Part shown: positions 33,320 to 35,744 of the stretch, in pieces
How positions within the stretch are numbered: the first letter of the stretch is position 1
How the letters are laid out: each line of letters begins with the position of its first letter
Origin: Litchfieldella anticariensis FP35 = DSM 16096
GTDB taxonomy: Bacteria; Pseudomonadota; Gammaproteobacteria; Pseudomonadales; Halomonadaceae
Direction of reading: 5' to 3'
Assembly: GCF_000409775.1 (NCBI RefSeq)
Contig: NZ_KE332377.1
Location: forward strand, 744,001 to 808,000
Length of the DNA stretch: 64,000 bases
Notes under the pieces: generated by a model
What the model saw: only the letters and a program-made list of their open reading frames with translations
Told to the model about the DNA's origin: nothing
Database searches by the model: none
Program-made: the position numbers and the translations under genes

Positions 33320-33837
33320 GCGACGAGTTCGTCCCACTGCAGTGTGCGGTGCTGACGGTTTCCGATACCCGCACCGAAGAGACTGATCGCAGCGGCCAAG
33401 CCTTGGTTGAGCGTCTAACCGAGGCTGGTCATGTACTGGTTGAGAAACGTATCGTCGTCGATGACGTTTATCGCATTCGTGCCCAGGTTGCCGCTTGGAT
33501 CGCTAATCCGGAGATCCAGGTGGTACTGACCACCGGAGGTACCGGCTTCACCGGGCGTGACTCGACACCTGAAGCCGTGCGTGTGCTGCTGGACAAGACC
33601 ATTGAGGGCTTTGGTGAACTGTTCCGGCATCTATCCTGGCAGGAGATCGGCAGCTCGACCATCCAGAGCCGTTGCCTTGGAGGGCTATCCAACGCCACGG
33701 TGGTGTTCTGTCTGCCCGGCTCTACCGGAGCCTGTCGCACCGCATGGGACGGCATTCTGCGCGAACAACTCGATAGTCGCCACAAGCCATGCAACTACGC
33801 GAACCTGGTCATTCCCGGTCGAGGTACGCATGGCTAA
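33316..33837 (+). CDS. moaB: Molybdenum cofactor protein MoaB/Mog-type
   Basis: 173 residues of the MoaB/Mog fold, with [32 protein letters not shown] and [16 protein letters not shown], the molybdopterin-binding loops. In relatives it adenylylates molybdopterin before metal insertion, or has a related role. It overlaps moeA by 8 bp. Placement behind the formate dehydrogenase operon fits supply of cofactor to FdhA. Confidence 0.93.
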
Positions 33838-35038
33838 CGAGCTACAAAGTGTCGAAACGGCACTGGATGCACTGCTCGATGGCGTCGCTACCTTGCCTAG
33901 TGAAATCTTGCCTTGCGAGCAAGCTGCCGGTCGGGTACTGGCCAATTCCGTGACTGCACGCCTGGATGTCCCACCTTTCGACAACAGCGCGATGGATGGT
34001 TATGCCGTGCGCGCTGTGGATACCGGCCGGGTGCTACCCATTTCCCAGCGCATTGCCGCCGGAGAGTCTGGCGCACCGTTGGATGCCGGCACCTGTGCAC
34101 GCATCTTCACCGGCGGTGCCATCCCTGCTGGCGCGGATTGCGTGGTGATGCAGGAACGAGTGGAAATACGCGACGAGGGCGTATGGATCCCAGCTGACAT
34201 TCCAGCCGGAGATAACGTCCGCCGCCGCGGCCGTGATGTACACGCCGGTCGCGAATTACTGCCCGCTGGTACACGCCTCGAGGCAGCTGCACTGGGTCAG
34301 CTCGCTTCCCAGGGGATCACCGAGGTGGCAGTGCGCCGGTGTCCACGCATTGCATTGCTTTCGACAGGGGATGAAGTCATCTCACCCGGCGAGCCACTTG
34401 CTGCGGGACAGATCTATAACTCCAACCGACCGATGCTGAAACGCCTGCTGGAACGTTTCGGGGCGGATGTCGTGCACCTCGCCAGTGTCCCGGACGACTA
34501 CGTGACGACTTGTGACATGCTGGCCGAAGCCGCCGAAATCGCCGATGTGGTGATTACCACTGGCGGTGTCAGTGTCGGTGAAGAAGACCACGTCAAACGC
34601 GCTCTGGAGCATCTGGGACAGTTGGACATGTGGCGCTTGGCCATGCGACCCGGCAAGCCCCTGGCCTTGGGTAGGCTACCCAAGACACATGGTGAAGCCC
34701 GCTTCGTCGGGTTACCTGGCAATCCGGTTTCTGGTTATGTCGGCGCCTGGCTATTTTTGCGTCCATTGATCGGCGAACTCCTCGGCTGCCCAGTACTCAA
34801 GCAGCTGCCACGCATTCATGCACGTAGTGAGTTCGCTACGCGTACCCAGGCGAGGCAGCACTACATGCGAGTCGCACTGATATTCGACCCCGCAGGCCCG
34901 AGAGCCGCAGCATTTGCCGACCAGAACTCCGCAGTACTGTCATCATGTATCGCAGCCAATGCACTAGCCGTAATTCCTGCTTACAGCGAACTAAAGGAAG
35001 GCGATACAGTGGAATGTTTATGGCTGGTCGAGGGCTGA
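33830..35038 (+). CDS. moeA: Molybdopterin molybdenumtransferase MoeA
   Basis: 402 residues, four-domain MoeA. VPPFDNSAMDGYAV near residue 50, RIFTGGAIPAGAD, the Mog-like domain with LSTGDEV, NSNRPML, TTGGVSVGEEDHVK, and GLPGNPVSGYV. It inserts molybdate into adenylylated molybdopterin in the cytoplasm. GAGG precedes the ATG inside the end of moaB. The gene ends seven bases before an inverted-repeat element. Confidence 0.96.
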   Translation: MANELQSVETALDALLDGVATLPSEILPCEQAAGRVLANSVTARLDVPPFDNSAMDGYAVRAVDTGRVLPISQRIAAGESGAPLDAGTCARIFTGGAIPAGADCVVMQERVEIRDEGVWIPADIPAGDNVRRRGRDVHAGRELLPAGTRLEAAALGQLASQGITEVAVRRCPRIALLSTGDEVISPGEPLAAGQIYNSNRPMLKRLLERFGADVVHLASVPDDYVTTCDMLAEAAEIADVVITTGGVSVGEEDHVKRALEHLGQLDMWRLAMRPGKPLALGRLPKTHGEARFVGLPGNPVSGYVGAWLFLRPLIGELLGCPVLKQLPRIHARSEFATRTQARQHYMRVALIFDPAGPRAAAFADQNSAVLSSCIAANALAVIPAYSELKEGDTVECLWLVEG

Positions 35039-35044
35039 TCCCAC

Positions 35045-35186
35045 GGAAACACTGAATAAATGCCTGCGCAGCTCAATCACCGCGTTACGCGGTGCTCACA
35101 AGCCTTACATATACCCCATATGCTCCAGTTGCTGCGCTCCGGGCGCCTTGTGCTTGAAGCCACTCGTCGATTTATTCAGTGCTTCC
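35045..35186. repeat. 142-bp element with 17-bp terminal inverted repeats (MITE/REP-like)
   Basis: The left end GGAAACACTGAATAAAT (35045-35061) is matched by the inverse of the right end, GGAAGCACTGAATAAAT (35186-35170), 16 of 17 identical. Inside are a hairpin CACCGCG-TTA-CGCGGTG (35078-35094) and a small CATAT/ATATG dyad (35108-35122). No ORF of note lies inside. I see no clear target duplication and no second copy in this window. The right end supplies the last codons and stop of acpH. It probably arose as a small non-autonomous mobile or palindromic repeat; mobility is inference. Confidence 0.65.
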
Positions 35187-35744
35187 TACACCCAGTCGTT
35201 CGTGTAACTCTTTCCATAGCGCCTGGAAATCCACTTCCAGGCGCTGGTAGTCGGCTTCCATCCATGGCACCAGCAAAGCCAGTCGATTAGGCCCCGACAG
35301 GCGGCGGCCGATATTTGTCACCGCCATGCACGTGAAGGAAAAGTCAGCGTAGCGACGTAACCAGTCCTCTTCGACCAGCACCGGCATCATCGGCGCCAGC
35401 CGCTCCGGTGCCGGACGTTCTTCAAGCAGACGATAACAGCGAGCTACCAATCGCTGGTGAGCCGTTGACGTTTGCATGCGCCGGGCTAGGAAATGATCCC
35501 ATAACAGATCCAGAGCGATCCCGGCGTAACGCCGCTGATCTACAGGAGCGCGATGTCGCGCCTGGAGTACGATATCGTGAGTATCGACGAACGCATCGAC
35601 CCGCCGGTGATGTCGAATGCCGTCGGCAACTATCGGCCTCCAGGCCGACAGATCGGGCCCTTTCACACCATCAGCAATCAAATTTCCGTACAGAAAATCG
35701 TCGCTGCCACCATGGGCCAATGCGGCATGGGCAAGAAAATTCAT
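35172..35744 (-). CDS. acpH: Acyl carrier protein phosphodiesterase AcpH (DUF479)
   Basis: 190 residues. MNFLAHAALA, the N-terminal GNLIADGVKG motif and HHRRVDAFVDTHD are the HD-like metal-binding signatures of AcpH, which removes the 4'-phosphopantetheine group from ACP. The last four residues, GSTE, and the TAA stop lie inside the right end of the inverted-repeat element, so the C-terminus has been rewritten by it. Five bases behind tusE, likely the last gene of the tus operon. Ribosome site weak. Confidence 0.9.
   Translation of the reverse strand: MNFLAHAALAHGGSDDFLYGNLIADGVKGPDLSAWRPIVADGIRHHRRVDAFVDTHDIVLQARHRAPVDQRRYAGIALDLLWDHFLARRMQTSTAHQRLVARCYRLLEERPAPERLAPMMPVLVEEDWLRRYADFSFTCMAVTNIGRRLSGPNRLALLVPWMEADYQRLEVDFQALWKELHERLGVGSTE

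Follow-up and report, generated by a model that had tools for sequence, protein, structure and literature searches.

The window, a 64,000-nucleotide stretch of contig NZ_KE332377.1 of Litchfieldella anticariensis FP35, holds a 142-bp element at the junction of acpH (acyl carrier protein phosphodiesterase) and a convergent moeA-like gene (Table 1; all coordinates are window positions). As the initial annotation had described, the element is bounded by 17-bp terminal inverted repeats with one mismatch, and the tip pattern (≤2 mismatches) was found within the window only at these two ends (shuffle mean, 0.03). The reported CACCGCG/CGCGGTG hairpin is also present; it is peculiar to the focal copy, while the covarying fold of the family is a single long hairpin spanning the whole element. 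As single-stranded DNA, the focal element folds better than 200 of 200 shuffles (z = -3.8). A length of 142 bp is insufficient for a transposase gene and encodes less than the 60 aa threshold of the open reading frame list; one ATG reading frame of 76 aa begins within the element and continues antisense across acpH.

Table 1. Features at the acpH–moeA junction, in window coordinates.
Feature	Position	Strand	Remarks
moeA-like gene, putative start, convergent with acpH	33827..35038	+	own stop TGA retained at 35036-35038
Left flank CCAC	35041..35044	none	probable decayed target-site duplication, from the empty-site comparison
Complete MITE, 142 bp	35045..35186	none	paired tips and near-full-length copies elsewhere in the genome
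Left terminal inverted repeat GGAAACACTGAATAAAT	35045..35061	+	tips common to an IS5-family element of relatives
Structured core, 108 nt	35062..35169	- (putative; sX9 on the other strand)	better-folding strand in 63/71 family copies
Local hairpin CACCGCG TTA CGCGGTG	35078..35094	+	arms at 35078-35084 and 35088-35094
Apical hairpin CATATACCCCATATG	35108..35122	none	CCTAT..ATAGG in other copies
Right terminal inverted repeat GGAAGCACTGAATAAAT	35170..35186	-	from reading the sequence
Right flank TAC	35187..35189	none	probable decayed target-site duplication minus one base, from the empty-site comparison
acpH, 190 aa	35172..35744	-	Pfam ACP_PD, E = 1.2e-51

The right tip supplies the end of acpH, with the last four residues (GSTE) at 35186-35175 and the TAA stop at 35174-35172. 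The acpH gene was located in 27 of 38 genomes, focal genome included, and amongst these 27 the focal genome alone has an element tip (≤3 mismatches) no farther than 500 bases from where acpH ends (in a few distant genomes the wrong frame was chosen by the script, and the ends there are unreliable). A relative from the same genus (G001, 88% identity) has an empty site, where acpH, with the C-terminus GSGLDQP, overlaps moeA; in a further genome (G014), as in G001, acpH terminates in LDQP within the 3' part of moeA, which is convergent with it. The element is absent from the acpH–moeA site in G001 and in other relatives. With GSTE at the insertion and GSGLDQP at the empty site of G001, the proposal that the element rewrote the end of acpH held up in the comparison of C-termini. 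Judging from the relatives, the two genes would have overlapped before the insertion, which would have separated them, left the moeA stop untouched, and exchanged the GSGLDQP of acpH for GSTE and a stop. Alignment of the joined flanks to the empty site leaves three extra bases beyond the focal element, without a perfect duplication at this copy; these bases may represent a 4-bp target duplication minus one base.

Dispersed copies and target duplications

The focal genome (5.07 Mb, 21 contigs) was searched with the 142-bp sequence, giving at least 65 rows at E ≤ 10. At least 23 copies, including the focal copy, cover ≥133 of the 142 bases (40 of 57 candidates scored), and the rest are fragments, split copies, and single tips. 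The tip pattern (≤2 mismatches) has 87 sites in this genome, compared to none for the backward control. Of 58 genomes searched, 15 gave a match to the 142-bp query at E ≤ 0.001 (focal genome included); these 15 belong to the 37 from the window's family, and the 21 from elsewhere gave none, such that the sequence is not unique and its matches amongst the 58 are confined to the family. The tip pattern alone, at one mismatch, was found in 19 of 58 genomes, including five outside the window's family with one match each; the control had a single match in each of two genomes. The suggestion of a scattered MITE-like repeat family is thus borne out by the dispersed copies in the focal genome and the matches in its relatives.

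Paired tips allowed the extraction of 109 elements, with a perfect 4-bp duplication in 37 and three of four bases duplicated in 33. After similar sites were removed, 26 of 86 distinct sites had a perfect 4-bp duplication and 50 of 86 matched in at least three of the four bases; the perfect duplications read YTAR in 12 of 26 cases and are mostly close to YTAR in the remainder. Because it combines dispersed copies, terminal repeats and target duplications in the family, and an empty site in a related species, the focal element is firmly identified as a non-autonomous transposon (MITE).

Several variants were observed amongst the extracted loci and the viral data. Four loci (L087:298-324, L090, L100, and L104) consist of both tips with almost no interior (27 to 57 bp), and at one site shared by two genomes the element measures 192 bp in the focal genome (L009, G000) and 141 bp in G001 (L133), the extra stretch carrying small hairpins. 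Plasmid and phage records had no match to the 142-bp element. Eight viral contigs carry an exact tip; two of these (L082 and L083) possess elements of ~160 bp with similar tips and a different interior (160 bp at L083:2021-2180), and no long element was found when sought in the eight.

The fold of the interior

Alignment A1 comprised 71 copies of 138–144 bp, with the longer, shorter, and poor-tipped copies amongst the 109 excluded. RNAalifold predicted 27 pairs from this alignment, with changes on both sides at 13. A structure of 46 pairs was written from this result and the tips; double changes occur at 23 of its pairs (shuffle mean, 14.9) and in 256 cells (shuffle mean, 91.5; 0/500 shuffles as high), with slid versions reaching at most 40, though the structure was derived from the same sequences and is hence favoured in the slid control. 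Against the fold, further pair types number 42 compared to 47.0 in shuffles (500/500 as high), and two of the 46 written pairs form in just 0 and 2 sequences. One pair of the apical hairpin (alignment columns 68-83) is AU in 28 of the 71 copies and CG in another 28, with the remaining 15 left unpaired. In a wider set of 99 non-redundant cores (of 147, Halomonadaceae included), 427 cells were double-changed (shuffle maximum, 169; slid maximum, 117); by the number of pairs with double changes (25), the wider set failed its control, as a slid version also reached 25. By parsimony, with mismatched tips treated as unknown, double switches at the 15 varying pairs numbered 48, against 10 single ones, on a tree from all columns, and 82 against 11 on a tree built without the paired interior columns. 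As modelled here, the interior is a conserved long-hairpin core kept through paired substitutions, and the fold may be kept by selection on RNA or on single-stranded DNA, or by palindrome correction.

Long imperfect palindromes are subject to quasi-palindrome correction by template switching. It is possible, if short of probable, that the paired changes reflect such DNA mechanics, with template switching in the imperfect palindrome or recombination between copies restoring pairing without selection. An excess of standard-pair double switches over single-sided ones is consistent with this process (8 vs. 0 at pair 56-93 and 5 vs. 0 at pair 36-113, with mismatched states such as A-C uncounted), as is the shared site at which the G000 and G001 elements differ in length, since interiors evidently change in place. 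Certain unpaired positions, however, are likewise conserved across genera, and the family is strand-biased in a way not expected from DNA correction, with A-C in excess over G-U at 26 pairs and G-U over A-C at four (interior alone, 13 vs. 3, p = 0.02); in the wider core set this bias is not clear, the two directions being nearly balanced by pair count (11 and 12). The strand that folds better is the one that is minus at the focal locus in 63 of 71 copies and the other strand in six; the wider core set leans weakly in the same sense (62 vs. 36, p = 0.01).

A role of the fold as RNA within host transcripts, whether in stabilising mRNA, offering an RNase III site, terminating transcription, or acting as an sRNA like sX9, appears rather unlikely. 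In its favour, the Rfam family sX9 (RF02228) matched four of 24 distant loci, above gathering at L274 and L272 and below it at L296 and L248, with some of the 24 scored at gathering only. In these four elements, the 76-nt sX9 model covers part of the core and part of one tip. Three of these loci are also matched by R1, a model built from 29 interiors with the tips removed (49.3 bits for L274, 50.1 bits for L272, and 90.7 bits for L248). The name sX9 belongs to a Xanthomonas sRNA, the genes of which are upregulated under copper according to a passage in one report (PMC10924375), and a passage in another lists it among the sRNAs most present in bacterial genomes (PMC9029176). The focal copy also contains one terminator-like match (0.2 expected) on the plus strand at 35134-35146, in agreement with an RNA role. 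Against it, every sX9 match lies on the strand that R1 does not match, opposite to the better-folding strand of the focal family, and the elements have no orientation bias relative to neighbouring genes (++ 13, -- 14, -+ 17, +- 12). No promoter-like site was found when sought in 34950-35300. The core further differs from sX9 in that the latter is described as an sRNA gene and that three loci from the focal genome had no Rfam match at E ≤ 1.

The source of the ends

The transposases of the focal genome itself were considered as donors and set aside, as none of its nine DUF772 and ten DDE_Tnp_1 matches has paired MITE tips. Following 18 seemingly unpaired tips of this genome ~2.5 kb inward revealed no long element. 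A DDE_Tnp_1 search of nine relatives led to a candidate donor IS in G001 and G019. The G001 copy is 1227 bp long, with tips GGAAACGCTGCATAAATC / GGAACCGCTGATTAATTG and CTAG on both flanks, and its protein is an IS5-family transposase (NF033581 [transpos_IS5_4], E = 1.3e-86; PF01609 [DDE_Tnp_1]; PF05598 [DUF772]). A match to this transposase at E ≤ 1e-30 occurs in 43 of 201 genomes of the family. Amongst 30 loci of the IS, 26 possess a pair of tips (weak in a few cases), and 16 of the 26 have a perfect 4-bp duplication. An autonomous transposase with the same ends, which the initial annotation had proposed to look for, therefore exists in relatives and makes the same kind of 4-bp duplication.

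Given this agreement in both ends and duplication, the IS5-family element of the relatives is the likely transposase donor, and its transposase would have mobilised the focal element in trans. The focal genome has no match to the donor transposase at E ≤ 1e-30 and no full copy of the IS was found there, and so any present movement would be hypothetical. Amongst the loci examined from that genome, one holds a relic, L096:347-403 (C15:111246), in which 57 bp from the left end of the donor IS survive (89% identity).

Overall, it is very probable that the focal element is a MITE moved by an IS5-family transposase, with an interior that is a separate, folded passenger core of 108 nt. It would be an ordinary MITE if it were an internal-deletion derivative of an IS5-family element, and its tips and duplication agree with such an origin. 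That origin is nonetheless very unlikely: in the best 20 matches between IS and MITE, the likeness stops after 17–20 bp of the tip and the element interior has no resemblance to the donor IS, and the interior recurs behind other ends. The focal element thus resembles the IS5-family MITEs in being small, in having no transposase gene, and in the tips and kind of duplication that it has in common with an IS5-family element, but differs from them in an interior that is not derived from the IS and in a structured core common to elements with other tips.

Other families of small repeats were compared to the element. ERIC was rejected as the family on the basis of one copy from E. coli, to which R1 gave no significant match (2.5 bits over the repeat and 4.2 bits beside it). 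REP elements are tied to the RAYT transposase. A REP is a palindrome of 20–40 bp in the part of the source describing it (PMC3733652), and at 142 bp the focal element lies outside that size. Correia elements (NEMIS) are, like the focal element, small MITEs, and transcripts containing them are cut by RNase III according to a passage in one source (PMC10969869); they too were rejected as the family, as R1 was not significant at 13 stretches containing a Correia sequence (two of these also with filters off).

The initial annotation had further proposed that the tip could be selected because it ends genes cleanly. Gene context was available for 58 of the 109 elements, which had long enough flanks for a simple gene call. 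A stop lies at the element edge (within one base) in 16 of the 58, of which 12 are TAA or TAG and four are TGA; at L040 stop and element share one base, the last of the former and the first of the latter. Amongst YTAR sites outside coding DNA, a stop coincides with 19 of the 185 in the flanks and, within the window, with 8 of 55. An apparent enrichment (16/58 vs. 19/185, p = 0.002) was dropped, as the comparison set holds TAA and TAG only. Compared on equal terms, any excess is weak or absent (TAA/TAG, 12/58 vs. 19/185, p = 0.04; exact abutment, 9/58, p = 0.34; vs. the window sites, 8/55, p = 0.46), and therefore no stop enrichment is claimed. That the element is kept for the in-frame stop of its tip, as would fit acpH and the two of three frames entering the focal tips that stop within 15 bases, is scarcely credible when the tip supplies a whole stop in just one of the 58 copies with context, namely the focal copy.

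The core behind other ends

Searching with R1 extended the core beyond the family, with a match at E ≤ 0.001 in 49 of 369 genomes of the class (focal genome included). Inspected by eye, most of the 30 R1 loci listed (one of them from the focal genome) have the core enclosed by an inverted repeat, of which there are several kinds; in three (L261, L270, and L271) such a repeat was not clear. Species genomes were also scanned with an exact core pattern written from known members, which offers no measure of prevalence, giving at least 117 stretches. The matches include the isolates Chlorobaculum thiosulfatiphilum (Chlorobiota) and Chlorobium ferrooxidans, and metagenome-assembled genomes (MAGs) labelled Geobacter, Nitrospirae, Troglogloeales, and Chloroflexi. 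The core of the Chloroflexi MAG is probably misbinned, because its tips and flanks are identical to those of a Gammaproteobacteria MAG. In 80 of the at least 117 scan loci there are 85 cores, 69 of them with a detectable inverted repeat (in some a stem rather than a tip), mostly at a distance of 18–20 nt from the core.

Example tips of the other end types are AGAGCTTGTGAAGAAATC, GGGCACCTCGAAAAACC, and CAGGCTGTTGAAAAAC. Elements of the second end type (type B, the first of these sequences) contain the core in 19 of 20 cases, and a perfect duplication of 3 bp, compared to 4 bp in the focal family, accompanies 11 of the 20 (best of 40 offset-length settings). No transposase for the other end types was found in the tips listed from 10 genomes (by eye) or in 30 of 49 further matches, and the only known-type tips amongst those 30 were of type A (L428 and L451).

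Further arrangements were noted. A 1601-bp element with a DDE transposase (L433:812-2412) is flanked by GGCC and bears tips AATTCTGTTGAAAAACTC, which resemble end type C in part, and the genome that holds it carries the core behind other ends. In a Proteobacteria MAG, five cores lie head to tail with a spacing of mostly 142 bp (L335:1764-2389). Two records of a plasmid collection, NZ_AP026896.1 (Aeromonas caviae) and NZ_MT039226.1 (Yersinia frederiksenii), have partial matches to the distant core of L274; the former is a record of chromosome size.

From sequence comparison, we infer that the core has been joined, as a passenger, to ends belonging to several different transposases. The broader proposition, to which we assign an even chance, is that one structured core is a cross-phylum passenger that repeatedly takes the ends of different transposases and outlives each of them, with sX9 being part of it. 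Neither the letters of the core nor a description of it was found in the literature consulted, mostly open-access text.

Bacterial MITEs are usually viewed as decayed ISs that retain little besides their tips, whereas here the middle is conserved and the tips vary by lineage. If the proposition is true, the heritable unit would be the folded core and not the ends, and some of the sX9 annotations in genomes would count transposon copies. The family offers a system for testing why small mobile elements retain secondary structure.
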